Part shown: positions 19,958-48,181 of the stretch, one piece after another
How positions within the stretch are numbered: position 1 is the first letter of the stretch
Layout of the letters: the number at the start of each line of letters is the position of its first letter
Source of the DNA: Acidobacteriota bacterium
Lineage (GTDB): Bacteria; Acidobacteriota; Blastocatellia; UBA7656
DNA length: 54,105 nucleotides
Direction: 5' to 3'
Assembly (NCBI GenBank): GCA_016201275.1
Contig: JACQDB010000148.1
Coordinates: 1-54,105, forward strand
The notes under the pieces: generated by a model
Databases searched by the model: none
What the model saw: only the letters and a program-made list of their open reading frames with translations
What the model was told of the DNA's origin: nothing
Program-made: the position numbers and the translations under genes

Positions 19958-21625
19958 TCAACCCATGTAGCCCAAACTTCGCAAACGCTCAATCACTTCT
20001 TCATTCTCTGCCGCTGTAAATTCCGCTTCGCCAGTGTCGCTCGTTTCATCCTGCTTGGCATAGCGCACCGGATTGGCCTGCAAAAAATTTTCCTCGATGA
20101 TGTTTTCCAGAATCTGCCCGTCCATATCTTCCGGCACTGCGTAACCGAGCAGGTAAAGAATCGTTGGCGTCACATCATAAATACTCGTCTGCACCACATC
20201 CACGCCGCGTTTGATCGCTGCGCCTTTGGCTATCATCACGCCTTCCATGCGATGACAACCCGATATGCCAAAGGCTTCGACCATAAATTTATTCGAGGTG
20301 AAATCGGCGCTGCCGATTGGCAAGTAACGCATATCTCGCGGCAAAAAAGAAATGTCCGGCGCGTCCGCAACTCGCGCTCCTTGATAAATCTCTTCGCGGC
20401 GATGCAGACGGCCAATCCACGGCTCGCCGGTTTGCGCGTCGCGCATCGCTTGGAGTCTGGCGACCAGCATCTCGCACACTTTGTCGTAGTCGCTTGCGTC
20501 CACAGAGCCGTGTGCTTCGCGGCCTTTCAAGTTCACATAAATCTGTCCGTAGTTGCCTTTTGAAAATGCCTTCGTCCGTGTCCAATCCACATCGTTGAAC
20601 GATAGAAAAAAAGTCGAGAGCGCTTTCGATGCGCCTGCCGTGTTGCCGACGCCACGCGCCGGACGCAGTTTGCCGAGCGGCAATTTCTTGACGATTTTGA
20701 AAGCGTTTTCGGGCGTGATGCCCACATTAAACATCAGCTTTTTCAGGCGCGTCACCGCGTCTGTCTTCAATTGCAAAAAACCTTCCTGCAACAACCAGTT
20801 GTTGAACGAGCAATATTTGTGCGCCGCGCCGAAGCCGTGATCGGAAGCTATCCATACCAGCGCTTCCGCTCCTGCAAGCTCTATCAAACGCCCGACGATT
20901 TCATCTACGCGGCGAAAATATTGATAGACGCGCTCACGGTATTTCGCCGCTTCCGCTTTATTGTGGCGCGGGTGTTCGTCGTCGAAGACGTGCCAGAGTT
21001 CATGTTGAAGGCGATCCGTTCCCCAGAAATATTGAAAGAAAGCATCCCATTCATAATTCGTCATCAGATATTCGCTGACCTGTGCTTTGTATTCCAACTC
21101 GTCGTTCAATTCGTTCAAGACGCCTTCAACATTGCCGTTGGCGTAAGTCTGCGACAGGTGCAGGCGATAATCACCAAAACGTGCTTCGAGTTCTTCGAGC
21201 AAAGTTGCAGGACAGGTAAAATCTCTGCGCCCACGCGGGGTCATAAAATCGGCAATCATCAAACCGTTGATTTCATGCGGCGGATAAGTGCAGGGAAAAT
21301 TATGCACGATGACGCGCTGGCCTGCTTCGCTCAAGATATCCCAGATGGCGCGGCCTTGCCTGAGCGTGGCGTTGACGGCAAGCTGGCGATGCGACTTTTG
21401 CTCGCGCATGACAAATTCAAAGATGCCGTGTTTGCCGGGATTTTTGCCAGTCATAAACGACGACCAGGCAACGGCGGTGATCGGCGGAAAAGTCGTTTCG
21501 AGGTTGGCGCGTGCGCCTGCGGCAATCAATTCGGCCAGGTTCGGCAGATAGCCTTTCGCCATCAGCGGGTCTAAGACGTTGAAGGACGCGCCATCGAGTC
21601 CTATGACTAATAACTTGTTACGCAT
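19958..21625 (-). CDS. Type I phosphodiesterase/alkaline-phosphatase-superfamily protein (paralogue 1)
   Basis: 555 residues of the PF01663 type with no signal peptide or membrane segment. Metal and catalytic residues are present: Asp11 in GLDGASF, Thr nucleophile in PPITAVAWSSF, TDRLQHELWH, SDHGFG and the last His in CHRMEGVMIAKG. It ends in ERLRSLGYMG, a tail shared by all four paralogues. It is closest to paralogue 2 (both have PRGR-DFT after the nucleophile). Family members hydrolyse or transfer phosphodiester groups; the substrate here is unknown. Its glycan-locus position suggests nucleotide-sugar or phospho-glycan processing. It is divergent from the sulfatase-like gene. Confidence 0.85.
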   Translation of the reverse strand: MRNKLLVIGLDGASFNVLDPLMAKGYLPNLAELIAAGARANLETTFPPITAVAWSSFMTGKNPGKHGIFEFVMREQKSHRQLAVNATLRQGRAIWDILSEAGQRVIVHNFPCTYPPHEINGLMIADFMTPRGRRDFTCPATLLEELEARFGDYRLHLSQTYANGNVEGVLNELNDELEYKAQVSEYLMTNYEWDAFFQYFWGTDRLQHELWHVFDDEHPRHNKAEAAKYRERVYQYFRRVDEIVGRLIELAGAEALVWIASDHGFGAAHKYCSFNNWLLQEGFLQLKTDAVTRLKKLMFNVGITPENAFKIVKKLPLGKLRPARGVGNTAGASKALSTFFLSFNDVDWTRTKAFSKGNYGQIYVNLKGREAHGSVDASDYDKVCEMLVARLQAMRDAQTGEPWIGRLHRREEIYQGARVADAPDISFLPRDMRYLPIGSADFTSNKFMVEAFGISGCHRMEGVMIAKGAAIKRGVDVVQTSIYDVTPTILYLLGYAVPEDMDGQILENIIEENFLQANPVRYAKQDETSDTGEAEFTAAENEEVIERLRSLGYMG

Positions 21626-21765
21626 AAAAAATGTGTCGGCTCCAAAGGTAAAAATAATACGTTGCCGCCGAGGGTTTGTACAATTTCCGTCGCGGCAATT
21701 TCACCCGTGAGGTTTTCCGGTGCGGCCTTTACCAAGGGCGCAGAAGGGTTTCAAGATAGCCGTGT

Positions 21766-21795
21766 TTGACATCAATTGAAGCGGCTGTTTACTAT
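21766..21795 (+). promoter_or_regulatory. Predicted sigma-70-type promoter of the sulfatase-like gene
   Basis: A perfect TTGACA box (21766-21771) is spaced 18 bases from TACTAT (21790-21795), 48 bases before the TTG start. Prediction from sequence only. Confidence 0.5.
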
Positions 21796-21842
21796 CCCTG
21801 TTTACCTTTTGGTCGGTTTACTTTTCAACAGGAGTCAGCGCT

Positions 21843-24110
21843 TTGTCATCTTCTCGAACAGAACTTGCTGCGGCTTCCGCTGCAACCCATGAATTGCACG
21901 CCAACGATTCGCCAATCCCTTGGCTCACTTCCCTGCGACGCTATGCGTTGGTCGGCGGCGGCGCGGCGTTAGGGTTAAGCCTGGTGGAATGGCTCGATTT
22001 GCAAGTGCAATTGACGCCGGTCTTCGCTTCGTTCAAAGAGCGAATCGTCTTTACCGCCTATTTCAGTTTGAACCTCGTCGTCGGTCTTTTGCTCGGCCTG
22101 CTCATCGGCGTGTTCGTTCGCGCCAGCGTGTTTCTGAAAGACCGCCTCGTAAACCTGTTGGGGCAAAAAAATCATCGCTGGACTCAATGGTTCGCCGGAC
22201 TTGCGGTCTTCACCGTAGCGGCGATTCTTTTGAAACAACAGCCGCATCTGCATGGCTACCTGATTGGTTTGATTCGTGAAGCCGAAAAGATAGACCCGCT
22301 TCGCGATCTGCTGTTGAATCATGAACGCTCGATCTCTTACGCGATGATGCTCGGCTTTCTCCTCTTCTTCTGGCTGCTGTGGCGTGCGGCACGAAGCGTA
22401 AATCGGTTGAAAAAGCCAATAAAATTGGGCTTTTTTCTACTCACCGTCGGGTTGATTCTCGTCGCCTACTACATAGATTCCCGCATCGAGGTGCAGCTTT
22501 ACGACCCATCGCTGCATCGCTCGTTGTTCATTCTGACTTTCGCTTTGACGATGACTCTGGTGAGCGCCAGCTATGTCGCTTTGCCGCGCCTGCAAGCCCT
22601 TCGCATCAAACCACTCGTTCTTAGCCTTGCCGCGATTGCCTTGCTTGCGGCCACGGCTTTCACCTTCAATCATTTCGATAAAAATCAAAACCTCAAAAAT
22701 CAAACGGTCTTTCGCACCAGCCAAACCCATCAACACCTGCGCTTGCTGCAATGGGCGCTGGATCGAGACCGCGATGGCTGGTCGCCCTATCTGGGCGGCG
22801 GCGATGCCGACGATCATAACGCCGCCATCAACCCGGCGCACCCTGAAGTCGTAGGCGATGGCGTGGACAACAATTGTATAGGCGGCGACCTGACGCCGCA
22901 GGACAGGGACGAATGGACACAGAGTTGGCAAGCTTACCACGCCGCGCCCAACCCCAAGGCCAAACGCTTGAATGTGATTTATGTGTTTGTGGACGCTTTG
23001 CGCGCCGACCATCTGGGCGCGTATGGCTACCCCAGAAACACCAGTCCGAATTTCGACAAACTCGCCGCCAAAGCGCAACTTTTTGAAAACGGTTTCACGC
23101 CTGCACCGAATACCTTTGAAGCGCTGCCGAAATTTACGCAGGGCAATTACTGGGACGCGCACTTGGAAGGCTGGCCGGAAATCATCGCCAAAAACGATTA
23201 CAACGCCATGGTTTTTCCGCGTCGCCTGCCGGTGTTGCTGCGCCACGTCAAAGGCATGAAGGTTGTGCAGGAAGCCCGCGTTAAAACTTTTGCCGAGACT
23301 ATTGATGTCGCCATCAAAGTTTTACAGGAGGCACCAAAAGAGAAACCCTTTGCGGCTTATCTGTACGCCACAGACACCCATCGCCCGTACAAATTTCATG
23401 AGCAATTCAATTTCGGCCAGTCCTTGACCGACCTGTATGATGGCGAGGTTGCTTATGTGGATTATCACCTAGGGCGTTTGTTCGCTTGGCTAGAGCGCGC
23501 CGGACGTATGCAGGACACCATGATTGTGATTATGGCAGACCACGGCGAATCGCTCGGCGAACGCGGAATGTACAAGCATTCGTCGTTGCTGTACAACGAA
23601 CAGTTGCACATTCCCTACCTGATTTATGTGCCGGAACTTGCGCCGCAGAAAATTTCCGCCTACGTCAGCAGCATTGATTTAGGGCCGACGATTTTAACCA
23701 CCCTCGGTTTGGATTATCCGCAAGCGTGCGCGGGTGTCAGTCTGTTGCCCTTGATGAAGAATGAACCATTCACGCCGCCGCCGGTTTACGCGGAGCAAAC
23801 CTATCGCTATCAATCGTTCTTTGTGCGCCCCGACCAGACAGTTTCCTTGGAGACCAAAAAATACGCGGTCATCACGCAGGACGGCTACAAATTAATTTAC
23901 AATCGCAATCCCTACAGCTTTGAATTATTCAATTTGAAAAGCGACCCGCGAGAAGAACACAATCGCTTCGACGAGGAACCGCAACGCGCCGAAGCGATGA
24001 AGAAAATGGTAGGCCGCTACGTGGACATGATTTCAGTGAGCCGCCCGTGGGACGCCGACGAAAGCCAATTCGTCTGGGGACAACCCGAAATCCACGATGT
24101 AGTGAAATAG
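21843..24110 (+). CDS. Membrane-anchored sulfatase-fold protein with MopE-like calcium motif
   Basis: 755 residues starting with TTG, eight bases after an aggag site. The first ~275 residues hold about seven membrane segments. Next comes a calcium-type metal-binding motif (DRDRDGW, GGDADDHNAAINP, GDGVDNNCIGGD, about 305-350), then a sulfatase domain from about 378 (FVDALRADHLGAYGYPRNTS) with MADHGESLGERGMYKHSS. The position of the formylglycine Cys is Thr (in APNTFEALPKF) and no CxPxR is present. It is therefore probably not a matured sulfatase but a phospho-transferase or phosphatase of the EptA/LtaS kind, acting outside the inner membrane. Confidence 0.8.
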   Translation: MSSSRTELAAASAATHELHANDSPIPWLTSLRRYALVGGGAALGLSLVEWLDLQVQLTPVFASFKERIVFTAYFSLNLVVGLLLGLLIGVFVRASVFLKDRLVNLLGQKNHRWTQWFAGLAVFTVAAILLKQQPHLHGYLIGLIREAEKIDPLRDLLLNHERSISYAMMLGFLLFFWLLWRAARSVNRLKKPIKLGFFLLTVGLILVAYYIDSRIEVQLYDPSLHRSLFILTFALTMTLVSASYVALPRLQALRIKPLVLSLAAIALLAATAFTFNHFDKNQNLKNQTVFRTSQTHQHLRLLQWALDRDRDGWSPYLGGGDADDHNAAINPAHPEVVGDGVDNNCIGGDLTPQDRDEWTQSWQAYHAAPNPKAKRLNVIYVFVDALRADHLGAYGYPRNTSPNFDKLAAKAQLFENGFTPAPNTFEALPKFTQGNYWDAHLEGWPEIIAKNDYNAMVFPRRLPVLLRHVKGMKVVQEARVKTFAETIDVAIKVLQEAPKEKPFAAYLYATDTHRPYKFHEQFNFGQSLTDLYDGEVAYVDYHLGRLFAWLERAGRMQDTMIVIMADHGESLGERGMYKHSSLLYNEQLHIPYLIYVPELAPQKISAYVSSIDLGPTILTTLGLDYPQACAGVSLLPLMKNEPFTPPPVYAEQTYRYQSFFVRPDQTVSLETKKYAVITQDGYKLIYNRNPYSFELFNLKSDPREEHNRFDEEPQRAEAMKKMVGRYVDMISVSRPWDADESQFVWGQPEIHDVVK

Positions 24111-24312
24111 GCCAAGACAAAAGTAAATTTGCCAGGATTCATTTTTATACATCGCCTGCGCGATTCCCATACAGAGAGCGGTTCATTGCCGCCGTTCAGT
24201 TGAAAAAAACCGCTTATTCCGGTCCGTCAGCGCGTCAAGTTTCTGGCACTTCGCTTGCCTTCTTCAGCAGCGAAATCTGTAGCGAGAAATATTCTCGACA
24301 AGCGGAGGGCTT

Positions 24313-24885: not shown

Positions 24886-24971
24886 CATTGCCGCGAGGGT
24901 CAAACGGATGATGCCCCGCAGGGTAGTGCGAAACAAGTAAGGCGCGACCGCCAACCCACTGCGCCGGTTTC

Positions 24972-28000: not shown

Positions 28001-29491
28001 CTATTTTTTGATGATGCGCTTCAAGATTGCAACATCATCGCGCCCGATTTCACGGCTCACCAACAACGCCGTAACATAAACCAACCCCAAAACTGCAAGC
28101 TTGATGAGGATCCATATCTTTGCGGCTGGCGAAAAACTCAACGACAGCGCATAGACCAGCGCCGCGCAAGCCGTGATTCGCAACGCCGATAGCCAAGGCA
28201 AAAAAGCTTGGAAGCGCGCTGCCAGATACGCCGCCCCGCCCACTGCGCCAACGCACATCGCAACGGTGGTCGCCGTGGCCGCGCCCCGCAATCCAGCAAG
28301 CGGAATCAATAAATAATTCAACGCCGCGCTCAACAGCAAGGTCAGCGCTCCAATCAACAGCGACACCTTCGGCTCGCCGCTTGCCGAAATGATCGTCGTC
28401 AACACATACAGCATTCCGAAAAACAACATTCCGAAAGCCACTACACGCAAAGCCGCGCCGCCCGCTTGATAATCCGCCGGATAAACCACCGCCAAAGCGC
28501 CTCTGGCATTGGCTGAAAACAACGTCGCAAGACCCGCCATAATCATCAGCGTATAGCGCAAGGTGTTGGCGATATAACTTTGCGTCTTCGCCCGTTCAGC
28601 GGCAAAGGTCGCTTGTGAAATCAATGGAAAAATCACGAAGGTGATCGAGATGATGATTTGATACGTCAGATTCGCCAGGTCTAAAGCCGCGCCATAATAG
28701 GCGGCATTTTCGCTGGCTATCGTCGCATCAGCCGACGACAGCGCTTTGATCAAAACCAGATCAACCTTTTGCAGAAGATTCAACAACAGCGTGAAGCCCA
28801 AAAGGTAGGCTTGAAATTTCAACAACTCCGCCGCCGGCACTTCGCCTTCGCGCCGCCCTCTGCCAGCGACCATGACCGACAAGGCCAAAACGCTTGCCGC
28901 CGCCAGCGCGAACCCCCCAACGCCGCCCATCACGCCAAAGCCCAACCCAACGAATAACACGATGTAGCCCAACTTCATCGTTGAATACGCCACGTCGAGC
29001 AAAGCCTGCTTGAGAAAATCTTTCCGCCCGTTGAAATAGCCAATGAATACGGCATAAAACCCATAAGACAGGGTGATGAGCGACGCCACGCGCAGATAAT
29101 TAGTCAAGCGCTCATCGTGCAAATATCTGGCGATCAACGGGGCAAGCAGAAAGAAACCCAACGCCGCCGCACCGCCTACCAGCGTTTGCAATCGCAAGGC
29201 TTTCGCTTTTACCGCATCGGCTTTGCTCTCTTCCTGCGAAATGTATTTCGAGACGGTTTGTTGCGTGCCGGTGACGATGACCGCGTTGATGATGGAGACC
29301 ACGCCGATGACAATTTTATAAAGGCCGAATTCATCTTTGCTGATCAAGCGCGGCAGGGCAAAGCTGATGCCGTAGCCGCTGATCATAAACCAGAGTTTGG
29401 CCAAGGTGATGAGAATCGTGCCGCGCCCGGCGGTTTTCGCTACATCAGCAGTTTGATCGGGCGGCGGTTTGATAACCTGTGACTGAGCCAT
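28001..29491 (-). CDS. Wzx-type polysaccharide flippase (MOP superfamily), first copy
   Basis: 496 residues with about 14 predicted membrane helices and no soluble domain. The opening GTILITLAKLWFMISGYGISFALPRLISKDEFGLYKIVIG is the PST/MOP exporter pattern. It would move lipid-linked oligosaccharide from the inner to the outer face of the inner membrane. It is the last gene of the 37.4-28.0 kb operon and overlaps the GT4 gene before it by 47 bp, strong evidence of cotranscription. A second flippase of the same superfamily lies at 39912. Confidence 0.85.
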   Translation of the reverse strand: MAQSQVIKPPPDQTADVAKTAGRGTILITLAKLWFMISGYGISFALPRLISKDEFGLYKIVIGVVSIINAVIVTGTQQTVSKYISQEESKADAVKAKALRLQTLVGGAAALGFFLLAPLIARYLHDERLTNYLRVASLITLSYGFYAVFIGYFNGRKDFLKQALLDVAYSTMKLGYIVLFVGLGFGVMGGVGGFALAAASVLALSVMVAGRGRREGEVPAAELLKFQAYLLGFTLLLNLLQKVDLVLIKALSSADATIASENAAYYGAALDLANLTYQIIISITFVIFPLISQATFAAERAKTQSYIANTLRYTLMIMAGLATLFSANARGALAVVYPADYQAGGAALRVVAFGMLFFGMLYVLTTIISASGEPKVSLLIGALTLLLSAALNYLLIPLAGLRGAATATTVAMCVGAVGGAAYLAARFQAFLPWLSALRITACAALVYALSLSFSPAAKIWILIKLAVLGLVYVTALLVSREIGRDDVAILKRIIKK

Positions 29492-30818
29492 TCGCAGTTA
29501 GAGAATCCTTCAAGAGGTCGTTGAATGTTGCGCCGATGAGTTGCCAATCATAAGCCTGCGCGGTGCGCTTCGCATTCTTTGCCAGGCGCTCGCGCAGGGT
29601 TTTATCATCGCGCAGAAGTTTTATCTTATCAGCAAGCAGCGACGGATTGCCTGCCGTAAAGAGCAAACCATTTTGCCCCGCCTCGATGATTTCCGAAACT
29701 CCGCCGACCCGCGCCGCTATCAACGGTCGCCCCGCCGCCAACGCCTCCAGCGCCACCACCGGCATTCCTTCGCAACGGCCATCCGGCAAACAGACGGAAG
29801 GAAGCACCACCGCATCGCATAATTTCAGGAGCCGCGCTTTTTCCGTTTTGTCCACCGTGCCGAAAAAAACGGCGTCAACATTGAGTTTTTTTGCCAAGCG
29901 CGCCAGCGCCATGCGTTGTTCGCCATCACCGGCGATTAACACTTGGACCTGGGGCAACGTCGCCGCCGCCTGCAATAAAATATGCACGCCTTTGATTTCC
30001 ACCAACCGCCCTATGAACAGAAGTTTATAAAGAGAGGGGGAATCATCCCCCTTGTGCGGACCACCCTCTGTGGTCGCCCCGGCTGGCAAGGCACTAGGAA
30101 AAACATCAGGCGCGGTCAGCGACGACCGCCCGTACATTTTTTTTGCTTCATCTTCACAACACTGCTGCGCCTTGAAAGTTGGGCGCGCAGAAATCCCTTC
30201 GGCCTCAAACACGGAAACCTTTATGCCCATCGGCATCACGGTAGTTTTCGCTTCTGCTGCAGGACAAAGCCGGATGAGTTTCTGCCGCAAATCATCGCTG
30301 ACCGTAACCAGGCGATGACTGCCGGAAACAATGAAGCGCAACAGCCAGCCGCCGCCGCGCCGCCGCATCAACCAATGCAACGCCCCGGAATGTTCTATGA
30401 CCAGATGCGGCTTTCGCAAAACTCTCGATAGCACTGCGCCGATCAAACCCGCAGGCAACAGCCAATGCGAGCAGATCACTTCAGCGCGCCGCGCCAGTCG
30501 AAAGGCGGTCACCAAAAAGCCGAGCAAGGAAATCGCGGTCAGCAATTTGGTCAAGAGATTACCGGCTAACACGCCGTGCCAATCGCGGCTCGCCTGCAAA
30601 GGGTCTAAAGCTGGCGGCAGCAAACTGTGCGAGCGTGTTAGTTGGAACTCCGGATAAGACGTAGCCTCTGCCCGAACCTCGGCAGGCGCGAGGACTTGCA
30701 CGGCGAACTCTTGCGCTACACAGCGCGCCAAGTCGCGCACATAACCGCAGGTCTCGTCATCCGGCGACGCCGGAAACGAACTCGTCAACATCAATAGCGA
30801 AGGTTTCGCTTGCGTCAT
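29445..30818 (-). CDS. GT4 glycosyltransferase with an unusual internal insert
   Basis: 457 residues, GT-B fold. The N-terminal domain starts with LLMLTSSFPASPDDETCGYV; the C-terminal domain has LLFIGRLVEIKGVHILL, IAGDGEQR and the donor-site EGMPVVALEALAAGRPLIAARVGGVSEI. Between the domains, residues of about 215-262 (from CCEDEAKKMYGRSS to GGPHKGDDSPS) do not fit the family and are encoded by a dispersed palindrome-like sequence (about 30030-30180). The predicted catalytic residues are intact, so it is probably functional. It is 7 bp from the GT2 gene before it and overlaps the flippase gene after it. Confidence 0.85.
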   Translation of the reverse strand: MTQAKPSLLMLTSSFPASPDDETCGYVRDLARCVAQEFAVQVLAPAEVRAEATSYPEFQLTRSHSLLPPALDPLQASRDWHGVLAGNLLTKLLTAISLLGFLVTAFRLARRAEVICSHWLLPAGLIGAVLSRVLRKPHLVIEHSGALHWLMRRRGGGWLLRFIVSGSHRLVTVSDDLRQKLIRLCPAAEAKTTVMPMGIKVSVFEAEGISARPTFKAQQCCEDEAKKMYGRSSLTAPDVFPSALPAGATTEGGPHKGDDSPSLYKLLFIGRLVEIKGVHILLQAAATLPQVQVLIAGDGEQRMALARLAKKLNVDAVFFGTVDKTEKARLLKLCDAVVLPSVCLPDGRCEGMPVVALEALAAGRPLIAARVGGVSEIIEAGQNGLLFTAGNPSLLADKIKLLRDDKTLRERLAKNAKRTAQAYDWQLIGATFNDLLKDSLTANGSVTGYQTAARSNC

Positions 30819-30825
30819 GATTCGC

Positions 30826-37543: not shown

Positions 37544-37545
37544 TT

Positions 37546-39225
37546 CTATCCCAGATAACCGAGACTTCGCAGGCGTTCGCGTATCTCTTCGCTCTCTTCG
37601 TCCGACATCAACTCCATATCGCTGCTGCCTTCATAAACCGAGGCATCCGATTTCCGCACCGGGTTGGCGCGCCTATACTCTTCGGTAAAAATCTCTTCCC
37701 ATACGCGCCCATCCATATCGGCGGGAATCTCTGCGCCAAAGGCGTGCAAAATCGTCGGCGCGTAATCAATGATGCGCGCCGTATGAAAGCGCAAGCCTTT
37801 TTGCAAATCGGGGCCGCGCCCAATCATAATGCCGTGCATACGATGATCGCCCGAATTGCCATACACCGGGGTGATGAATTTATTGGAAGTCAGGTCCAAA
37901 GTGCCTAGCGGTTTGTTGGTCATATCCGTAGGCAGAAATTGCAGGTCCGGCGATTCGTCGGTGTGTGCGCCGCTGTAGAGGTCTTCGCGTCGCCAGATGT
38001 CGCCAATTAAAGGCTCGCGGGTTTCCGGGTCGGTGAGTTGTTTCAAGCGTGTGGTCAAATCCTGCAAGACCCGCTCGTACTCTGCGCCCGGTTCGACGAT
38101 GCCGTGTTCTTCGCGGCCTTTCAGATTGATGAACATCTGCCCGTAGTTGCCTTTGGAAAAGGCCACGGTGCGCGACCAATCCACATCATCAAGCGACAGC
38201 ATCAACGAATTCGCCAGCTTCATCAAACTGGAGCGATTGCTCACGCCTACCGACAAACGCAGATGCGCCAGCCCCAGTTTCATCGCCGAACGATACGCCA
38301 GATCGGGCGTCAAACCCAAACGAAACAGCGCTTTTTTGAAGCGCGTCAGCGCATCGCGTTTCAATACCAGCAAGCCCTCGTTGAGTAACCATACATTGAA
38401 GCAGAGGAATTTTTTAATCGGCCCGAACCCGTGATCCGACCCCATAAACACTGTGGTATCGTCGCCGATGGCATCGAACAATTGCCCTAGTGTGGCGTCA
38501 ACCGCGCTCCAGTATTCGTTGATGCGACCGATGTGGGCATCGTGTTCTTTTTGGTCAAAGAAGGGGTGCGTTTGGTCCAAGAGGTGCCACAACTCATGTT
38601 GAAAACGGTCGGTGCTCCAATAATGTGTGACGTAAATTTCCCAAGGGTAATTCTGCATCAGGTAGAGATTGACTTTGGTTTTGTATTCGAGTTCGGCAAA
38701 CAACTGGTCAAGAATTTTATCCACATTGCCGGGCGTATAAACTTCCGTGATGTAGAGTTGATACTCGCCAAATTGGGCTTCGATTTCCTGCCGCAGGCTT
38801 TCAGGAAAAGTAAAATCGCTGCGCCCTCGCGGCGTGAGAAAATCGGCAACCATCACGCCGTTGGTCATGGTCGGCGGATAGGTCACTGGCATATTGGTGA
38901 CGATGGCGGGTTTGCCTTGATTGCCGAGAATATCCCAAAAGGGCAGGCCGTCGCGTACACGCGCACTGACCGGCATATCGGGGAGTTTGCCCGAGCCTTT
39001 GCGGCGCAACAGAAATTCAAAGATGCCGTGTTTGCCGGGGTTCGTCCCGGTCGCAAACGACACCCACGCAGTCGGCGTAATCGGCGGAATCGTGGTTTCC
39101 AGCGGCGACCGCACACCGTCCTCAATGAAGCGTTGCAAGCGCGGCATCAAGCCCTGCTGCATCAACGGGTCAAGAACATCAAAGGTCGAACCATCGAGGC
39201 CAATAAATAAGACTTTTTTACTCAT
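37546..39225 (-). CDS. Type I phosphodiesterase/alkaline-phosphatase-superfamily protein (paralogue 2)
   Basis: 559 residues, soluble and cytosolic by sequence. Key positions: Asp in GLDGSTFDVL, Thr nucleophile in PPITPTAWVSF, TGTNPGKHGIFEF, TDRFQHELWH, MGSDHGFGP and the final His in DHRMHGIMIGRG. It ends ERLRSLGYLG. It resembles paralogue 1 along its whole length, including SKGNYGQMFINLKGREEHG. As an apparently intact enzyme it should act on a phosphodiester or phosphate group, but the substrate is unknown. It precedes the GT2-to-flippase operon and follows the Uma2 gene by 9 bp. Confidence 0.85.
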   Translation of the reverse strand: MSKKVLFIGLDGSTFDVLDPLMQQGLMPRLQRFIEDGVRSPLETTIPPITPTAWVSFATGTNPGKHGIFEFLLRRKGSGKLPDMPVSARVRDGLPFWDILGNQGKPAIVTNMPVTYPPTMTNGVMVADFLTPRGRSDFTFPESLRQEIEAQFGEYQLYITEVYTPGNVDKILDQLFAELEYKTKVNLYLMQNYPWEIYVTHYWSTDRFQHELWHLLDQTHPFFDQKEHDAHIGRINEYWSAVDATLGQLFDAIGDDTTVFMGSDHGFGPIKKFLCFNVWLLNEGLLVLKRDALTRFKKALFRLGLTPDLAYRSAMKLGLAHLRLSVGVSNRSSLMKLANSLMLSLDDVDWSRTVAFSKGNYGQMFINLKGREEHGIVEPGAEYERVLQDLTTRLKQLTDPETREPLIGDIWRREDLYSGAHTDESPDLQFLPTDMTNKPLGTLDLTSNKFITPVYGNSGDHRMHGIMIGRGPDLQKGLRFHTARIIDYAPTILHAFGAEIPADMDGRVWEEIFTEEYRRANPVRKSDASVYEGSSDMELMSDEESEEIRERLRSLGYLG

Positions 39226-39234: not shown

Positions 39235-39822
39235 TCAAGCCTGTGCTTCTTCTGGAAATTTAATCTTGTTATACAATCCGGCGAGGGCAATTGTGCAATT
39301 AATCGCAGCGATGTGCAGCGTATTTTCCAGCCCTTTGACCACCACATAACGCCAGCTACCGTCTTCCTGCCGGATGAAATGTTCCACACGCGGTTCGTCC
39401 TGCGCGATTAACACATAATCGGTGAAGCTCTCAAGAATTTGATAACGCAGAAATTTCGCGCCTCTATCGAAGGCTTCCGTCGAAGGCGACAGAATTTCAA
39501 AGATCACTTTCGGGTTGAGCAGCACCTCGCCCTTGTCATCGAGAAAAATTGGCTCGCCGCACACCACGGATAAATCTGGGTACGAATAAAGCCCGCTATA
39601 GCTTGACCTGACCTTTGTATCATTGGAAAAGCCTCGACAGGAGGTGCTTCTCAACTGCGGGTTTACTTCACCATACAGATTAAAGGTTATGGCGGAATGC
39701 GCCGGACTTGCGCCCGCCATCGCGTAAATCTGGCCGTCGAGATATTCGCTCTTGAAGTCTGCTTGTCGTTCCAACTCTAAATACTCTTCGGGAGTAAAGT
39801 GCTGTTTCGGATTTGAAGCCAT
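39235..39822 (-). CDS. Uma2-family PD-(D/E)XK protein (full length)
   Basis: 195 residues, the normal Uma2 (DUF820) length: HFTPEEYLELERQADFKSEYLDGQIYAMAGASPAHS, then YPDLSVVCGEP (catalytic-type Asp), NPKVIFEILSPSTE (Glu-x-hydrophobic) and FRYQ-type helix YQILESFTDYVLIAQDEP. These are putative endonucleases found in many copies in cyanobacteria and acidobacteria, of unknown role. It is 9 bp before paralogue 2 on the same strand and is probably cotranscribed. A truncated relative lies at 9550. Confidence 0.8.
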   Translation of the reverse strand: MASNPKQHFTPEEYLELERQADFKSEYLDGQIYAMAGASPAHSAITFNLYGEVNPQLRSTSCRGFSNDTKVRSSYSGLYSYPDLSVVCGEPIFLDDKGEVLLNPKVIFEILSPSTEAFDRGAKFLRYQILESFTDYVLIAQDEPRVEHFIRQEDGSWRYVVVKGLENTLHIAAINCTIALAGLYNKIKFPEEAQA

Positions 39823-41715: not shown

Positions 41716-44403
41716 TTATTTGCGCCGCCGGATTCGCAATATCAGCAAGGCCGCGAAAACGCCGATGGCGGCAGTAATACTCAAATAAACCGAGGCGCGA
41801 AACACTCGCGGAGCAAAGCGGAATGATAGCACATGACTTCCCGCAGGCACGCTGACAGCGCGCATCGTATGATTGGCGTGAAAGATTTCCACGGGCTTTC
41901 CGTCAATCTCCGCCTGCCATCCGGGGTAAAAATTATCGCTCAAAACTAACCAGCCATCGCCCGCGTTTTCGGTCTCGATCACGACGCGATTGCGGCGGTC
42001 TTCGCTGATCGTCGCCTTGCCGACGCTGCAGGTTTGCGTTGACAACTTCGCGCCTTGCACAACGGCTGTCGTCTTTATATCAAAATCCGCCTGACGCAAA
42101 CGCTCCAAGTCCGCCACGCCGGACGGCACACCGCCATCCATCACTTGTTGCACAAAGAAGGCACGCGGCAAGGCATGACGATTTTCATAAAGCGCCAAGC
42201 CATCGGCCTTCATCAACAATTCATAACTCGACGACACCTCCGCTGCCGCGTAGGTCAACAGATATTTCACATTCAGCGCATCGAAAAACGGCGACTCAGT
42301 GGTTTCAAAGACCACATGGCTCAACTGATTTTGTGCTTCGATGAGAGCACAAAATTCTCTGTAGGCTTTGGGGAAAAGTTGGTCTTTGCCGGTCACCGTG
42401 GGAATTTGATAAGGCAGCAAAGTATTGGGCGGCGCGATGATTTTGGCTTCCCGCGAAGTGTCCCGCGCCCGGCGGTTGGTGGCGAGGCCGGAAGGCGCAA
42501 CCAGCAGCCTGCCCGCTGGCAAGGCTTTCAATTTCTCGGTGATGGCGGTTATTGGAAAGACCCGCTTGCGGTCATGGGTTTTGTCGAATTGCTGGCTGTT
42601 GAGATACAAATCGCCAATCAACAAAGCGACCAGCAAAGTAAAAAACAGATTGCGGTTGATGCGGTTTTGGTTCAGCCAGTGCCACAGCAAATACACGGCA
42701 CTGACCACCAGAAGCGGCCATAAAACGCTGGCGCTCGGTCGGGTGAATTGCGCGGTCATGGCAACGGCTACGCTTCGCAGATAAGCTAGACGCCCTGAGC
42801 CTGCGACATATTCGATATTGGCATTGGCGATGAATCCTGAAAGTTTGACGAGCCATGAGACGATTGCCGCAATGATGACGAAAGCCAAAATCGCCAGCAG
42901 AATTTTTTTCACCAGGCGATGAAATTTTTTCAACTCATCGGCGCTGGCTTTGAGCAACAAGTCTGCGCCAAAGCCGACCAGCACAGAAGCCGCGAAGAGA
43001 AACAACACTCCGGCGCGCACGATGACGCGAATCGAACGCAACACCGGCACGAACTGCGTCAGATGAACATAGAGCGGCGCGGCCATCATCACGACCAATG
43101 CCAAGACCAATAAGAACATGAAAAAACTGATGCGATGCTGCACCAGCGTTTCACTATAGGAAGGTTGCACAGCGAGGGTTTGAGTTTCTCCCTGTTTATC
43201 AGAAGCCGTTGCCAAACTTGCGGCGGCTTGCTTCGTCGTTATCAACTCCGCTGCTGGCGCGGTGGTTTCTTTCGGTTGATGATTTTTCTGCATCCGAGGC
43301 AGCCAGGCGAAAAGTTTTCGCCAGCGTTTTCTCTGCGAGTAAAACAACAAGCCCAGAGGCAGCAGCGCCGCGATGCCTAGATACAGACTGTGATCGTGCG
43401 AGACGTTGAGCGCCGTAAACAGCGTCACCATTTTCGGGTCGTAAGCGGTGCCGAACAGATTCGGAAAAATCAGCGTGACCAGATACCACGGCGGCAAATA
43501 AATAAAGCCGGTTTCCGTCGGCACAATGCGGCGATTGGAATAGCCTAGCAACTCCACCACCGGCAGCCACTGCGTCGCCGCCAGCGCCAAGCCCGTTATC
43601 AACGTCACCGTCATCAGCAAAAAAAGCCTGATAACATTGAGTTTTTTCGCACTTTCCAGGTTGAGCAGGGTTCGGCTGCGCCAGCCGAACAGCAGAAAAT
43701 AGAGCGCGACCGCGCCGATGTAATAAATTTGATTCGGCATATAGGCGCAGAAAAATTGCAGCGCGATAACGATGCCGGCAATGATGGCCTGCGAAAAACT
43801 GCGGCGGGTGATGGCTCGATCAACATAGAGAAAAATTAACGGCAGCCACATCAAGCCGCCCCACCAACCCAAGCCGGTCAGGTGAAATAACGAATGCGCC
43901 GAGAGTTCAAACACCAACGCGCCCATCAACGCAGCCCGCGCCGTTACGCCTATGGCAATCAGGAACAAATACATGAAGATTGCGCCAAGCATTAATTCAA
44001 AGAGGCGCGCTACCGAATACCCCAGCGGCAAATCCAGAAAAGCGTACACCACCAGCGATGGCGAAAAGATGCGCGTCACGCCATCGGCATAAATCGGATG
44101 GCCTGCCATCGTATAAGGATTCCACAACGGCAACTCGCCATCTTGGTAGGCAGCGACAATGAAATATTCCCGCGTCAGATACATATCCGTAGGGTCACGG
44201 CGATTGTACGGATGATTGACCGTCTCCGCCGCGTCATAGCCCCACGGCAATTGATTGTTCAAGGTGTTGACATCAATGATGGTGTCGCCCAGAAAAAAGA
44301 CCCGCCAGTAAAGCGCCACAATGACCAGAAGCAGCAGCGCGATATTGATCGCGTGATTGCGCCAGGTTGCCTGTAGTGGTTGGGTAGATGCGTCGGTCAT
44401 CAA
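41716..44403 (-). CDS. YfhO-family large membrane glycosyltransferase-like protein
   Basis: 895 residues with about 12-13 membrane helices and a C-terminal beta-rich domain (about 770-870, VIETENAGDGWLVLSDNFYPGWQAEIDGK), the pattern of bacterial YfhO proteins (PF09586). The first loop has LPLWNPYTMAGHPIYADG, typical of the family. YfhO proteins are linked to glycosylation of cell-wall polymers, probably as GT-C-type enzymes using lipid-phosphate sugars. A Thr/Ala/Gln-rich insert (about 375-425) lies in a cytoplasmic loop. It precedes the second flippase on the same strand. Confidence 0.85.
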   Translation of the reverse strand: MMTDASTQPLQATWRNHAINIALLLLVIVALYWRVFFLGDTIIDVNTLNNQLPWGYDAAETVNHPYNRRDPTDMYLTREYFIVAAYQDGELPLWNPYTMAGHPIYADGVTRIFSPSLVVYAFLDLPLGYSVARLFELMLGAIFMYLFLIAIGVTARAALMGALVFELSAHSLFHLTGLGWWGGLMWLPLIFLYVDRAITRRSFSQAIIAGIVIALQFFCAYMPNQIYYIGAVALYFLLFGWRSRTLLNLESAKKLNVIRLFLLMTVTLITGLALAATQWLPVVELLGYSNRRIVPTETGFIYLPPWYLVTLIFPNLFGTAYDPKMVTLFTALNVSHDHSLYLGIAALLPLGLLFYSQRKRWRKLFAWLPRMQKNHQPKETTAPAAELITTKQAAASLATASDKQGETQTLAVQPSYSETLVQHRISFFMFLLVLALVVMMAAPLYVHLTQFVPVLRSIRVIVRAGVLFLFAASVLVGFGADLLLKASADELKKFHRLVKKILLAILAFVIIAAIVSWLVKLSGFIANANIEYVAGSGRLAYLRSVAVAMTAQFTRPSASVLWPLLVVSAVYLLWHWLNQNRINRNLFFTLLVALLIGDLYLNSQQFDKTHDRKRVFPITAITEKLKALPAGRLLVAPSGLATNRRARDTSREAKIIAPPNTLLPYQIPTVTGKDQLFPKAYREFCALIEAQNQLSHVVFETTESPFFDALNVKYLLTYAAAEVSSSYELLMKADGLALYENRHALPRAFFVQQVMDGGVPSGVADLERLRQADFDIKTTAVVQGAKLSTQTCSVGKATISEDRRNRVVIETENAGDGWLVLSDNFYPGWQAEIDGKPVEIFHANHTMRAVSVPAGSHVLSFRFAPRVFRASVYLSITAAIGVFAALLILRIRRRK

Positions 44404-44526
44404 TGGTGGTGATGGTGAGAGTTGAGCTAAGTAGGTTTGCGTATATCTTTTGAAAAAGATTTATTAAAAAGCCTGAAAAACAGGGGTTTTCTGTGATTAT
44501 TTTTCAAAAAACTTTTGCCTACTTAC

Positions 44527-44824: not shown

Positions 44825-44865
44825 AGCTCACGTCGTCGCCCAATCATAGCACACGATTCGGGCAA

Positions 44866-46494
44866 TTACAGATACCCCAAGGCGCGAAGTTTTTCTTCTA
44901 TCAAGCGTTCTTCTTCGTCGCTCAAGGCTTGGTTTTCGTCGGTGGTTTCGCGGCTCATCTTTGCAAATCGCACCGCTGAATCCTGGGCGTCGAGGGCTTC
45001 AATCACGCGCCCGTCCAAGCCTTCCGGCACCGCCAGTCCAGCAAGGTGCAGAAGCGTCGGCACTAGATCATAAACTTGCGGCGGGGTGGGCAAATTCAAT
45101 TCCTGCATCGGACGTATGCCTTTGCCGTGACCAATCAATATGCCTTCGGGGCGATGGTCGCCGCTCCACCAGAAACCTTTGGCCTGCACTTCGGCGGGCG
45201 GCTTGCCCAGGTGCGCGGCGCGATTCCAATAGACATACAAATCGCTGGCGCGCTCGGCATATTCGCCTTGATAAACTTCATCGCGGCGCGTCACACGCTC
45301 GACCACACGGTTGCCTCTGGCGTCTTTCCAGTTCAATAAATCAGTCATCAATTTATCGCAGACCTTCACATAATCTGCCGCCGCCACGCTGCCGTGTTGA
45401 TTGCGTCCGGCGAGATTGATATTGATGACGTGACGCCCCGCTTCGGTATAAGCAGAAGTCTCTGCCCAATCAATCGAAGCATAAAACGAGTCCTTGTCGG
45501 CGGCCTGCAATTGCTGCACACGCTCATCGCCGAGCTTCGCTTTGATCTTCTCCTTGAGTTTCGTCGGCAAAATATTTTTCGCGGCGCGACGACTGGCGCG
45601 CCGCAATGAAGCGCCTTTTTCGACAGGCTTCCGACGGCGCATATAGCCTCGCTGTTCCAGCCACTCGGCCAAATGATACGACGCGCCCGAATGCAAGCCC
45701 ATACCGTGATCGGAAATCACATAGACCTGGGTCGCTTCATTGGTGTATTGCAACAAGCGCTCAATCGCCGCATCCAGGGCGCGATAAATCGTCAACAGCG
45801 AATCCCGGTGCGGCGAACGCGGGTCGTAATCGGGATGATGTTCGTCCGCATATTTCCATAGATTGTGACCGCCCCAATCGCTGGCCGTATAAACCGTCAT
45901 GAAAAAATCCGGTTGATATTTATTCAACAGATATTCAGCGGCAGCAGTTTGATGACCAATCAGGTGCAACCACGTTTCTACGGCTTCGGTGATTTTTCCG
46001 GCGCTCATCAAATTGCCGAGCCGTGCAGGCGTGAAATGATAATCGGGAACGACGCGCAACAATTCTTCGCGCAGTTCGGGCGGGCAGAAACAATTAGCGT
46101 TCAACGAAGGCGCATCCAAACCGCTAATCATAAACCCACCGGCGCTGCATTCGGCGGGATAGGTCATCGGCACGTTGAGCATTCCCGTCGTCAACCCTTG
46201 CCGGGAAAGATGCCGGGTCAGCAGATCGCCTTGACGGTCGCCGCCTTTGAAAAAGACCTGTTGCGCGGTTTTGAAATCGCGGTCAGAAAAAACATACAGC
46301 CCGTGCCGCCCCGGATTTAAGCCCGTCAAAATAGAAGTCCAGGCCGAAGCGCTGTGCATATTCGGCGTCGAAAGCAGCATTGAATACGCGCCTTCCTGCA
46401 TCAAGCGCGCCAGTGTAGGCAGGTGTCCGGCCTGTGTCCAAGGCTTCACCAAATCCATTGTCGCGGCATCAAGGCCGATGATTAATATCTTCAT
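44866..46494 (-). CDS. Type I phosphodiesterase/alkaline-phosphatase-superfamily protein (paralogue 3)
   Basis: 542 residues, no signal peptide. Positions: Asp in GLDAATMDLV, Ser nucleophile in MHSASAWTSILTG (Thr in paralogues 1 and 2), LNPGRHGLYVF, SDWGGHNLWKY, VISDHGMGLHSG and the last His in GDHRPEGILIGHGKG. It ends EEKLRALGYL. The middle has a basic patch (RRKPVEKGASLRRASRRAAK). All expected metal ligands are present, so activity is likely on an unknown phosphate or sulfate ester. It forms a pair with paralogue 4 on the same strand, with an 80-bp gap containing a hairpin. Confidence 0.85.
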   Translation of the reverse strand: MKILIIGLDAATMDLVKPWTQAGHLPTLARLMQEGAYSMLLSTPNMHSASAWTSILTGLNPGRHGLYVFSDRDFKTAQQVFFKGGDRQGDLLTRHLSRQGLTTGMLNVPMTYPAECSAGGFMISGLDAPSLNANCFCPPELREELLRVVPDYHFTPARLGNLMSAGKITEAVETWLHLIGHQTAAAEYLLNKYQPDFFMTVYTASDWGGHNLWKYADEHHPDYDPRSPHRDSLLTIYRALDAAIERLLQYTNEATQVYVISDHGMGLHSGASYHLAEWLEQRGYMRRRKPVEKGASLRRASRRAAKNILPTKLKEKIKAKLGDERVQQLQAADKDSFYASIDWAETSAYTEAGRHVININLAGRNQHGSVAAADYVKVCDKLMTDLLNWKDARGNRVVERVTRRDEVYQGEYAERASDLYVYWNRAAHLGKPPAEVQAKGFWWSGDHRPEGILIGHGKGIRPMQELNLPTPPQVYDLVPTLLHLAGLAVPEGLDGRVIEALDAQDSAVRFAKMSRETTDENQALSDEEERLIEEKLRALGYL

Positions 46495-46506
46495 TTTTTG
46501 TCTGGC

Positions 46507-46571
46507 GTCCGGGGTCTGAAGTCCGGTGTCCGGTTTATCAAATTTACGACACCGAACTTCAGACCCCGGAC
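46507..46571. terminator. 16-bp inverted repeat between paralogues 3 and 4
   Basis: Arms gtccggggtctgaagt (46507-46522) and 46556-46571 pair perfectly, with an inner cggtgtc/gacaccg stem. It ends two bases before the paralogue 4 stop codon, so on the minus strand it follows that gene directly. It may end or attenuate transcription before paralogue 3; there is no clear T-tract. Confidence 0.5.
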
Positions 46572-46573
46572 GA

Positions 46574-48181
46574 TTATTCTATATATCCGAGCGCACGCAT
46601 ACGCTCACGGAGTTCCGCTTCTTCGTCCGCTTGATAAACCGATTCGTTTATCGTTTGCGAATCCGTCGAACGATACGAGCTGCCTTCTCTGACGATGTGT
46701 ATGTCGTCCGTGAAGACTTCATCCAGCACGCGCCCGTCGCCATCTGCGGTCAACGGACAACCCAATGACGCCAGCGCCGTCGCGCCAATGTCGCGCAGAT
46801 TCGGTTGTTGCCTGAAACTCGCGCCGCTGCGAATGCCGCGCCCCCACGCAATGAAGATGCCGTCTTTGGCGTGCGTCCCGGTAGTCGAATCGGCAGGCAC
46901 GATGGTCTCGCCATAACTCGGTCTTTCGTTATAAACGTATTCATCACGCGCCGGAACCATCACCACATCCGGCAACCGATCTTTGTATAAACCGGCAAAG
47001 GCTTCATCGCGGCGCAACACCTTTGCAAAAACGCGCTGCCCATCAACCGGCGATAGCAGATTGGTCAGACAGGTTCGCGCTTCTTCTATGACCGCTTCAC
47101 ATTGGTTTTCCGCAACCCAGCCTTGCGCTTCGCGGCCTTTGCGGTTCACCCACACGCCTTTGTCCTGCGCGAAAAAGGCGCGGGTGCGCGACCAATCTAT
47201 TTCATCCAGAAACGCCCCCCCTGCCTGCACTTTTCGTTCAAGCGAATTGCCCTGCAAGGAAGTGGAAGACAAGCGCCGAGTGATTTTTTCTTGTAGCGAT
47301 TTCAGCTTTGCACGGCTGCGGCGGAAGGCTGACGCTTTGAATTTGAGCAGGCCCGCAGAGGCCAGCAATTCATTGACGCGCACTTCGTACAACTCCGCAC
47401 AGAAGCCGTGATCGGAGACGATAAACAAGCGACAATCCGCCGGAAGTTTTTCCAGTAGCCTGCCGATGGCGGCGTCGAGTTGCGCGTAAGTGTCGGCGAT
47501 GAAGTGACGAAATTCGCTCGGCGCATAGGGACTATGGCGCGGGTGCGAAGCATCCATATCCGCCCAGAAATCATGTTGGGCGCGGTCAAGTACGGAAAAC
47601 ACCACCATCAAAAAATCCCAACTCTCGCGCTCCATCAAAAATTGCGTGACCTGTTCGTGCATCACCGTAGCGCGGCGGAATTCTGCGGCTCGCCGGTGTT
47701 TATCGGGATGGCGTCCAGGTTCAATCAAATAATCGGGAAGCGCCGTAAGAATTTCTGATTTCAGCGTCGCCGGATAGGTCCACTCGGAATTCATATTCGG
47801 CGTCAACATCCCTGTCACCATCACCCCGTTGAGCGGTTCAGGCGGATAAGCCGTCGGCACATTGATGACGATGGAGCGCCCCTGTTGCGCGCCGAGCAAA
47901 TCCCAAACGTGGCGCGTCATAATGTCGCGTCCACTCATGGCGCGTACCGCATAGTCATGATTTTTTTTGATGAAGGGGGAAAAGATGCCGTGCATTCCCT
48001 CGCTGGTTCCGGTCGTGCAACTAGACCAGCCGGGGAAACTATTCGGCAGTAGAGTTGAACGCAACGGCGCGTGCGACCCTTCGCGCATCAGTTCCGCCAA
48101 AACCGGCAACCGCCCGGCTTCGATAAGCGGCGTGAGCAGATCAAAGGTCGCGCCATCCAGTCCTATAATTACCGTCTTCAT
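46574..48181 (-). CDS. Type I phosphodiesterase/alkaline-phosphatase-superfamily protein (paralogue 4)
   Basis: 535 residues. Positions: Asp in GLDGATFDLL, Ser nucleophile in LPNSFPGWSSCTTG, SEGMHGIFSPFI, VLDRAQHDFWADMDASHP, IVSDHGFCAELYEVRV and the final His in THAKDGIFIAWGRG. It ends ERMRALGYIE. This copy diverges most around the nucleophile (PGW for AW). It is likely to have a different substrate from paralogues 1 and 2. The start MKTVIIGLDGATF is unambiguous. Upstream lies a long palindrome and then the APS kinase gene on the same strand. Confidence 0.85.
   Translation of the reverse strand: MKTVIIGLDGATFDLLTPLIEAGRLPVLAELMREGSHAPLRSTLLPNSFPGWSSCTTGTSEGMHGIFSPFIKKNHDYAVRAMSGRDIMTRHVWDLLGAQQGRSIVINVPTAYPPEPLNGVMVTGMLTPNMNSEWTYPATLKSEILTALPDYLIEPGRHPDKHRRAAEFRRATVMHEQVTQFLMERESWDFLMVVFSVLDRAQHDFWADMDASHPRHSPYAPSEFRHFIADTYAQLDAAIGRLLEKLPADCRLFIVSDHGFCAELYEVRVNELLASAGLLKFKASAFRRSRAKLKSLQEKITRRLSSTSLQGNSLERKVQAGGAFLDEIDWSRTRAFFAQDKGVWVNRKGREAQGWVAENQCEAVIEEARTCLTNLLSPVDGQRVFAKVLRRDEAFAGLYKDRLPDVVMVPARDEYVYNERPSYGETIVPADSTTGTHAKDGIFIAWGRGIRSGASFRQQPNLRDIGATALASLGCPLTADGDGRVLDEVFTDDIHIVREGSSYRSTDSQTINESVYQADEEAELRERMRALGYIE

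Follow-up and report, generated by a model that had tools for sequence, protein, structure and literature searches.

Clustered PF01663 proteins and an APS kinase in a glycan locus of Blastocatellia: a possible link to the sulfation of lipid-linked glycans

The contig JACQDB010000148.1 (54,105 bp, assembly GCA_016201275.1), analysed here over its full length and called the window, comes from an Acidobacteriota bacterium of the class Blastocatellia. It carries, among glycan genes, four paralogous genes of the PF01663 family of type I phosphodiesterases, named here PDE1 to PDE4. The encoded proteins belong to the alkaline phosphatase (AP) superfamily, and a sequence-only reading of the same DNA had suggested that they add, remove or exchange phosphate or sulfate groups on a lipid-linked glycan. 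Since the conserved neighbour of these genes encodes an adenosine 5'-phosphosulfate (APS) kinase, which makes 3'-phosphoadenosine 5'-phosphosulfate (PAPS), this alternative narrows toward sulfate. The kinase gene lies just outside the span on which that reading was centred (19958-48181), yet it is part of the finding. On this basis, the window locus probably belongs to a sulfated-glycan pathway. With a confidence somewhat short of even, PDE1 to PDE4 can be viewed as members of an AP-superfamily branch, soluble or peripheral and located in the cytosol, that serves sulfated lipid-linked glycans and uses the PAPS of the clustered kinase. Sulfate transfer by the PDE proteins themselves, a catalytic role which we infer, is possible, though somewhat less likely than not. 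The five genes concerned are the following.

19958-21625, minus strand: PDE1, PF01663 enzyme with a Thr nucleophile (PPITAVAW); Pfam, alignment; clade of 4 rows
37546-39225, minus strand: PDE2, PF01663 enzyme with a Thr nucleophile (PPITPTAW); Pfam, alignment, AlphaFold2 model; clade of 10 rows
44866-46494, minus strand: PDE3, PF01663 enzyme with a Ser nucleophile (MHSASAW); Pfam, alignment; clade of 5 rows
46574-48181, minus strand: PDE4, PF01663 enzyme with a Ser nucleophile (PNSFPGW); Pfam, alignment, AlphaFold2 model; clade of 11 rows
48445-49134, minus strand: APS kinase (CysC); Pfam PF01583, E 1.9e-61; above the NCBIfam cut-offs of PRK00889 and apsK

Association with an APS kinase

The window kinase scores 282.7 bits against PRK00889 (cut-off 244) and 227.9 bits against apsK (cut-off 138.7). 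It contains the P-loop and aligns over the whole domain with an APS kinase of the Protein Data Bank (PDB) at 229 bits. Its true start is probably near 49005, since the match to PRK00889 begins at residue 44. The gene heads a run of 14 minus-strand genes that reaches 28001, with gaps of up to 462 bp.

The conservation of this arrangement was followed in 39 genomes, all of one class and including the window's own. A profile built from PDE1 to PDE4 detects members of the class in 20 of them at E 1e-10, 19 of these at E 1e-40 or better. Of the 18 genomes having both genes, 13 show an APS kinase domain at a distance of 163-989 bp from a class PDE, against a crude random placement, calculated with rounded genome sizes and manual locus counts, that expects 0.13 genomes with the two within 5 kb; the 18 genomes are related, so the counts are not independent. 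Sorted by family, the proximity was observed in 7/7 genomes of f1, 1/1 of f2, 2/2 of f4, 2/2 of f8, 1/3 of f6 and 0/3 of f5. The APS kinase and the PDE therefore recur together as a unit in five of the six families having both, represented in f6 by one genome of three. An APS kinase is present in 18/19 genomes with a class PDE versus 9/20 without (Fisher p 0.0012, not corrected for kinship). Each of the 13 genomes with the unit also has ATP sulfurylase.

In six genomes (G000, G002, G003, G004, G009 and G013), a second APS kinase adjoins a gene of PF01507, the PAPS reductase family, and in G027 a second copy lies within 2 kb of such a gene. Because the other kinase sits by the PF01507 gene in these seven genomes, the copy of the PDE locus is there probably a dedicated enzyme and not the assimilatory one.

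Proposed mechanism

In the scheme proposed here, ATP sulfurylase would produce APS, which the APS kinase of the locus would convert to PAPS. Each PDE paralogue, with its own glycosyltransferase partners, would then take the sulfuryl group of PAPS and place it on one sugar of an intermediate linked to undecaprenyl. This transfer would make use of the two-metal site and of the Ser/Thr residue and would precede flipping, on the inner side of the membrane; the presence of several ancient paralogues would imply several sugar positions. By analogy, the reaction would be the one shown genetically for Agl30 and Agl31, two AP-superfamily proteins of Halobacterium, the donor being putative in both cases. 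In its widest form, the proposal is more speculative: a large PF01663 branch, found in Acidobacteriota and haloarchaea, could be a new class of PAPS-dependent sulfotransferases with a phosphodiesterase fold, two metals and a Ser/Thr nucleophile. Its paralogues, up to six and one per sugar position, would act on cytosolic polyprenyl-linked glycans and would often be co-inherited in bacteria with their own APS kinase or with an ATP-sulfurylase/APS-kinase fusion.

Sequence, metal site and fold of PDE1 to PDE4

PDE1, PDE2, PDE3 and PDE4 are uninterrupted open reading frames (ORFs) of 555, 559, 542 and 535 amino acids, all on the minus strand, which score 140.2, 137.8, 123.3 and 143.1 bits against PF01663 (gathering score 23). 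Their mutual alignment keeps GLDG/GLDA, the D-x3-H pair (DRLQH, DRFQH, DWGGH and DRAQH), SDHG and the last His. These residues make up the two-metal site of the AP superfamily, with six ligands (D, D-x3-H, D-H and H) and a Ser/Thr nucleophile, a site that is deduced from the alignment and not from distances in the models. The nucleophile column reads T, T, S and S. The four intact copies and the complete set of ligands, both claimed in the sequence-only reading, are thus confirmed. The cytosolic location that it had predicted is supported by the beginning of the first core strand at residue 3-4 in the PDE4 and PDE2 models. No signal peptide or membrane helix was found in the four proteins, their highest 19-residue hydropathy being 1.0-1.4.

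PDE4 and PDE2 were modelled with AlphaFold (mean predicted local distance difference test, pLDDT, 87.5 and 85.1) from small alignments of 14 and 12 sequences, and the models are AP-superfamily folds with nucleotide pyrophosphatases as nearest relatives. PDE4 superposes on ENPP1 with Z 28.6 and a root-mean-square deviation (rmsd) of 3.4 Å over 360 residues, and PDE2 on the nucleotide pyrophosphatase/phosphodiesterases (NPP/ENPP) with Z 27.8 and 3.7 Å over 365 residues. A sulfatase module comes lower in the PDE4 match list (Z 24.5, rmsd 3.0 Å, 265 residues), and the first Foldseek row is a phosphonoacetate hydrolase. Among the nearest solved structures, the NPP/ENPP, some contain bound AMP or UDP-GlcNAc.

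Xanthomonas NPP and mammalian ENPP1 and ENPP3, also of PF01663, are exported or membrane-anchored nucleotide-degrading enzymes. They share with PDE1 to PDE4 the fold (Z about 28), the metal ligands and the nucleophile. The window proteins differ from them by the lack of a signal peptide or membrane helix, by about 150 residues more than the solved Xanthomonas enzyme, by a C-terminal tail of the RLRxLGY type, and by F, P or L at one active-site position. This is the column after the HGI motif, which we take to be the phosphate-contacting Asn111 of Xanthomonas NPP; it was located in an alignment.

These features were followed in 78 homologues (ORFs of at least 400 amino acids and at least 200 bits) from Blastocatellia genomes, one named contig and six haloarchaeal plasmid loci, after exclusion of the duplicate loci L001, L002, L003 and L005 and of the partial L066. 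The six ligands are intact in 77/78, with T at the nucleophile in 44, S in 33 and P in 1, and the Asn column holds F in 63, P in 14 and L in 1. The class has thus retained the metal site and lost a hallmark of NPP, as none of the 78 has Asn in that column. The sole exception in the ligands is a degenerate paralogue of G009 (L074:7748-9397), with Pro at the nucleophile and two altered metal ligands, perhaps a non-catalytic partner. The RLRxLGY-type tail (with K/R and M/L variants) is present in 56/78 homologues, including 5/8 archaeal ones, for instance at residues 547-553 of P0001. A role of PDE1 to PDE4 as formylglycine sulfatases was rejected: their nucleophile sites (TAVAW, TPTAW, SASAW and SFPGW) do not fit the motif C/S-x-P/A-x-R.

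Distribution and age of the paralogues

PF01663 matches occur in 39/39 genomes, up to 29 per genome. The genome of the window (6.84 Mb) has eight, of which six exceed 100 bits; four of these six lie inside the window. The other two are weak, and the "sulfatase" at 21843 accounts for one of them. The grouping of four PF01663 genes in the window is more than chance. Among named contigs, relatives of PDE4 were in Acidobacteriota in 5/5 cases and in Blastocatellia or Chloracidobacterium in 4/5.

In a quick maximum-likelihood tree of the 78 rows, with Shimodaira-Hasegawa-like approximate likelihood-ratio (SH-aLRT) support only, each window copy falls in its own supported clade: PDE1 with 3 others, PDE2 with 9, PDE3 with 4 and PDE4 with 10. 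A fifth clade of shorter proteins (about 451 amino acids) is not represented in the window's locus. PDE1 to PDE4 represent four old orthologous groups in Blastocatellia, not copies of recent origin. A recent tandem duplication is ruled out by their pairwise identity of 27-48% and by the orthologues of each copy in other genera.

The sequence-only reading had drawn attention to the split between two Thr and two Ser nucleophiles. In the AP superfamily, both residues serve as nucleophile. A division into two functional classes on this basis was not retained: the states follow the clades, and the tree needs at the fewest 5 changes (2 of them forced by well-supported branches) versus 25 in shuffles, so the residue reads as a clade marker.

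All four PDE genes lie on one contig in unchanged order in G002. In G004, three share a contig, and PDE1 is found elsewhere with its own glycan module. G001 and G003 belong to the same family as the window's genome. The neighbourhood reading covered four split-off pieces (G033:C65, G033:C87, G029:C13 and G029:C18), which still accompany glycan genes; class genes were also detected on G033:C115, G033:C130 and G029:C11, whose surroundings lie outside that reading. The dispersal of the genes away from glycan genes, which, like a missing metal site, would have spoken against the earlier suggestion, is therefore mainly not observed, the exception being the APS-kinase operon of G033, with a DUF4328 gene, PolA and a PDH-type gene as near neighbours. 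In G022 (L036, on C20), six class paralogues are packed within 14 kb, together with a glycosyltransferase of family 4 (GT4) and a flippase.

The glycan locus and its conserved neighbours

The remaining features of the window locus, in which GT denotes glycosyltransferase families, are listed below.

41716-44403, minus strand: YfhO-like membrane protein, presumably of GT-C type, neighbour of PDE3; Pfam PF09586; homologues beside PDE3 in L009, L012, L014 and L017
39912-41570, minus strand: Wzx-type flippase 2; Pfam PF13440; adjoins the YfhO gene in the same four loci
36654-37379, minus strand: GT2 resembling polyprenyl-phosphate-sugar synthases, recurrent partner of PDE2; Pfam PF00535; best NCBIfam match ArnC, far below cut-off
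35517-36566, minus strand: LPG-synthase-TM (PF03706) membrane protein; Pfam
33567-35264, minus strand: second of two GT-C (PMT_2-like) membrane glycosyltransferases; below the Pfam cut-off
31644-33566, minus strand: first of the two GT-C (PMT_2-like) membrane glycosyltransferases; Pfam
28001-31593, minus strand: GT2 (30826), GT4 (29445) and flippase 1 (28001); Pfam
21843-24110, plus strand: membrane-anchored PF00884 "sulfatase" without formylglycine motif, of probable LtaS/EptA-like architecture; Pfam, sequence
13406-19915, minus strand: PDE1 module with GT9 (18560), GT2 (15916), S-adenosylmethionine-dependent methyltransferase (15045) and a GT-C-like protein (13406, below the Pfam cut-off); Pfam; homologues with PDE1 in L011, L019 and L023

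The GT2 and GT-C enzymes, the two flippases, YfhO, GT4 and GT9 support the lipid-linked glycan setting suggested by the sequence-only reading. The best NCBIfam matches of the three window GT2 proteins are polyprenyl-phosphate-sugar synthases, all far below the curated cut-offs. The sulfatase-fold protein which that reading counted in the set fared less well. The motif C/S-x-P/A-x-R is absent throughout the 21843 protein, which rules out a formylglycine sulfatase; given this absence and its several hydrophobic N-terminal segments, the protein looks more like a membrane enzyme of the LtaS/EptA type. It also contains a MopE-type metal-binding stretch (below cut-off), and its homologues adjoin glycan genes in G002 (L011) and G029 (L106).

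The neighbours of each paralogue are specific and recurrent. PDE1 is accompanied by GT9, GT2, the methyltransferase and GT-C in the window, L011, L019 and L023. The GT2 partner of PDE2 is adjacent in L015, L017, L040 and L105 and lies at about 3 kb in L012; the LPG-synthase-TM protein is often present as well, and YfhO with flippase 2 accompanies PDE3 and PDE4 in L009, L012, L014 and L017. A broader count, from which the window itself was excluded, scanned 120 of the 138 neighbour ORFs and 106 of the 238 control ORFs of the same genomes. The neighbours comprise 7 GT2, 5 GT1/4, 5 flippases and 3 GT9, or 20/120 if these are different proteins, versus 5 visible GT2 and GT1/4 among the 106 controls, a figure of at least 5 as it comes from the top 25 families listed. 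The enrichment in glycan genes is modest (p = 0.005 with a control of 5 and 0.024 with a control of 7). The APS kinase is the single commonest neighbour family (8/120) and is not among the top 25 control families listed. The greedy ORF calling hid some true genes, for example in L025.

Two further features of the window can be mentioned. GT2 and GT9 of the PDE1 glycan operon are separated by a restriction enzyme of the NotI family and a DNA methyltransferase of the D12 class (16759-18758); in G002 (L011), these two glycan genes adjoin each other and the restriction-modification pair is absent from between them. A Uma2-family nuclease-like gene (39235-39822) is located within the glycan operon, 9 bp from PDE2.

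Sulfotransferases in the genomes with PDE genes

Sulfotransferases were searched with three families, PF13469, PF00685 and PF03567. No classical sulfotransferase was found among the 35 window proteins run against Pfam, a subset of the window ORFs, and both PF13469 sites of this genome are on other contigs. G029 (3.3 Mb, 97% complete) contains an operon APS kinase-PDE-PDE-PDE-PDE-GT2, flanked by genes of other kinds, and has ATP sulfurylase, but nothing in it matched PF01507, PF13469, PF00685 or PF03567. In a glycan operon of G027 (89% complete), an ATP sulfurylase/APS kinase fusion has two divergent class PDEs as neighbours, together with an epimerase, a GT-C and a PF00884 protein, and no match to the three sulfotransferase families was found in this genome either. 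Both genomes favour the proposed role. Fused ATP sulfurylase/APS kinases also occur in G016, G020 and G031, where the coordinates put a classical sulfotransferase within about 0.7-7 kb; the stretches read around them (L075-L077) show no class PDE.

Some class PDEs have no APS kinase next to them and can instead adjoin a classical sulfotransferase: such a gene is 41 and 46 bp from class PDEs in G022 and G038 (L102, G022:C56, and L103, G038:C50). In G033, a classical sulfotransferase is 2 kb from class PDEs. The sulfotransferases beside the PDEs of these three genomes tie the PDEs to sulfation once more.

Comparison with known systems

The sequence-only reading knew of no described pathway with this combination. 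A close parallel nevertheless exists in the N-glycosylation cluster of Halobacterium salinarum, which contains three AP-superfamily genes, two of them shown to encode glycan sulfotransferases (Zaretsky et al. 2025, PMC11980604). Agl30 (VNG1056C) and Agl31 (VNG1057C) sulfate the N-glycan, as established by deletion and by heterologous expression in Haloferax volcanii, whereas no role is assigned to the third protein; Agl31 is soluble and cytosolic, and the authors argue that both sulfotransferases act on the lipid-linked glycan (PMC11980604). Like PDE1 to PDE4, these proteins belong to the AP superfamily and are encoded, several together, in a glycan assembly cluster, Agl31 being also devoid of an export signal. 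PDE1 to PDE4 thus match their kind in AP fold, glycan cluster setting and absence of export signal. The two systems differ in that Agl30 and Agl31 are archaeal and that neither APS kinase nor adenylylsulfate is mentioned in the text of the paper as seen (PMC11980604); the likeness drawn here is one of description. In Haloferax volcanii, Agl7 is needed for the sulfation of a dolichol-phosphate-bound hexose, as far as the part of PMC3871713 consulted shows, and this sulfation of a lipid-linked sugar resembles the one proposed for PDE1 to PDE4. In UniProt, Agl7 is labelled "sulfatase".

Members of the class itself are found in haloarchaea. The P0004 search returned 59 plasmid records, and the 40 listed are all haloarchaeal by genus name. 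The "alkaline phosphatase family proteins" of the six loci opened (L090-L095) belong to the class (227-335 bits to the profile) and, like PDE1 to PDE4, are encoded in glycan loci, with glycosyltransferases in 6/6, a flippase in 4/6 and "sulfatase-like hydrolase/transferase" genes in 2/6. These loci differ from the window in their lack of an APS kinase within about 12 kb (0/6). Among plasmid APS kinases, those closest to the window's are cyanobacterial (Nostocales, 56-63% identical). These stand-alone CysC resemble the window kinase, and an annotated sulfotransferase is adjacent in 2/6 loci viewed; they differ from it in their surroundings, since none of the six annotation tables lists a phosphodiesterase or a gene of the alkaline phosphatase family. 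In the openly licensed literature, no paper on this gene combination was found by titles and abstract openings among the matches listed, and the main text of a review of polysaccharide sulfotransferases (PMC11625862), in the part consulted, does not mention alkaline phosphatase.

Alternative explanations

Several observations weigh against the proposed role in sulfation. By fold and sequence, PDE1 to PDE4 are nearest to phosphodiesterases, pyrophosphatases and phosphonoacetate hydrolase, that is, to phosphorus and not sulfur chemistry, and phosphoester chemistry, hydrolysis included, suits their fold, nucleophile and metal site at least as well. Sulfate is favoured only by the gene neighbourhood, the loss of the Asn and the precedent from archaea, so that any assignment of the chemistry is tentative. 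The kinase link also has its exceptions: six genomes (G001, G005, G006, G007, G029 and G033) have a single APS kinase, situated in the PDE locus, which may serve other needs; family f5 has large PDE arrays and its APS kinase elsewhere, beside ATP sulfurylase; G008, with two weaker class members, is devoid of an APS kinase; and the haloarchaeal loci described above lack the kinase within about 12 kb. In G029, a sulfotransferase of a family other than the three searched could exist. Most PDE genomes have sulfotransferase-family matches elsewhere, and where a PDE coexists with a classical sulfotransferase, as in G022, G038 and G033, it need not be a sulfotransferase itself. As for the archaeal precedent, the text of PMC11980604, as far as seen, is without the words PAPS, donor, nucleophile and active site, and its InterPro account assigns an arylsulfatase family to Agl31 and none to Agl30, with PF01663 given for neither.

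The main rival, rather doubtful but a genuine contender, regards PDE1 to PDE4 as true phosphodiesterases or pyrophosphatases of the inner membrane face, cleaving or recycling polyprenyl-phosphate(-pyrophosphate) sugars or nucleotide sugars for editing, chain-length or donor control, while other enzymes carry out the sulfation. Membership of PF01663, the NPP/ENPP structures with AMP or UDP-GlcNAc, the ligands and the Thr/Ser nucleophile kept in 77/78 homologues, GT2 partners resembling polyprenyl-phosphate-sugar synthases and the classical sulfotransferases of G022, G038 and G033 all agree with such a role. It is harder to reconcile with the replacement of the presumed phosphate-contacting Asn by F, P or L in 78/78, and with the cost of maintaining four ancient hydrolases in a single pathway. 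Moreover, PAPS would then be made in G029 and G027, two genomes in which nothing matches the three known sulfotransferase families.

It is unlikely that the PDE proteins are phosphotransferases adding phosphoglycerol, phosphoethanolamine or similar groups to the glycan, in the manner of LtaS, EptA and the glycosylphosphatidylinositol-ethanolamine-phosphate (GPI-EtNP) transferases, with the APS kinase serving an unrelated sulfation. The superfamily is the same, and the locus includes the LtaS/EptA-like membrane protein at 21843. The known enzymes of this type are, however, membrane-anchored and outer-face, and PDE1 to PDE4 have no membrane anchor; the 35 window proteins run against Pfam include no donor-making gene such as a CDP-alcohol transferase, and the recurrent partner makes PAPS.

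Far less probable still is a neighbour that would be the 3'-kinase of another nucleotide-activated group, which the PDEs would transfer or release. Some homologues of APS kinases act on other substrates, for example Cj1415 of the Campylobacter phosphoramidate pathway. The window protein, however, exceeds the NCBIfam cut-offs for adenylyl-sulfate kinase and aligns over its whole domain with PDB APS kinases. The version of G027 is fused to ATP sulfurylase, an enzyme found in all 13 genomes with the unit, and neither a glutamine kinase nor a cytidylyltransferase is among the families found in the 35 window proteins.

Coincidence is the least credible explanation: PF01663 genes are common in Blastocatellia, as their presence in 39/39 genomes attests, glycan islands collect unrelated genes and the glycan-gene enrichment is modest, but the class PDEs are a distinct subset (20/39 genomes at E 1e-10) whose paralogue-specific neighbours persist across genera and families, and this conserved gene order already contradicts it.

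Significance

Genes annotated "alkaline phosphatase family protein" or "type I phosphodiesterase", of no assigned function, are part of glycan loci in Blastocatellia and in haloarchaea, hence in at least two lineages. The link with the APS kinase gives such proteins a concrete substrate hint, namely activated sulfate. If the proposed role of PDE1 to PDE4 in sulfation is true, a route to sulfated surface glycans in Blastocatellia would escape genome surveys limited to PF00685, PF13469 and PF03567, and the AP-fold sulfotransferases described from archaea in 2025 would exemplify a broader group with bacterial members.

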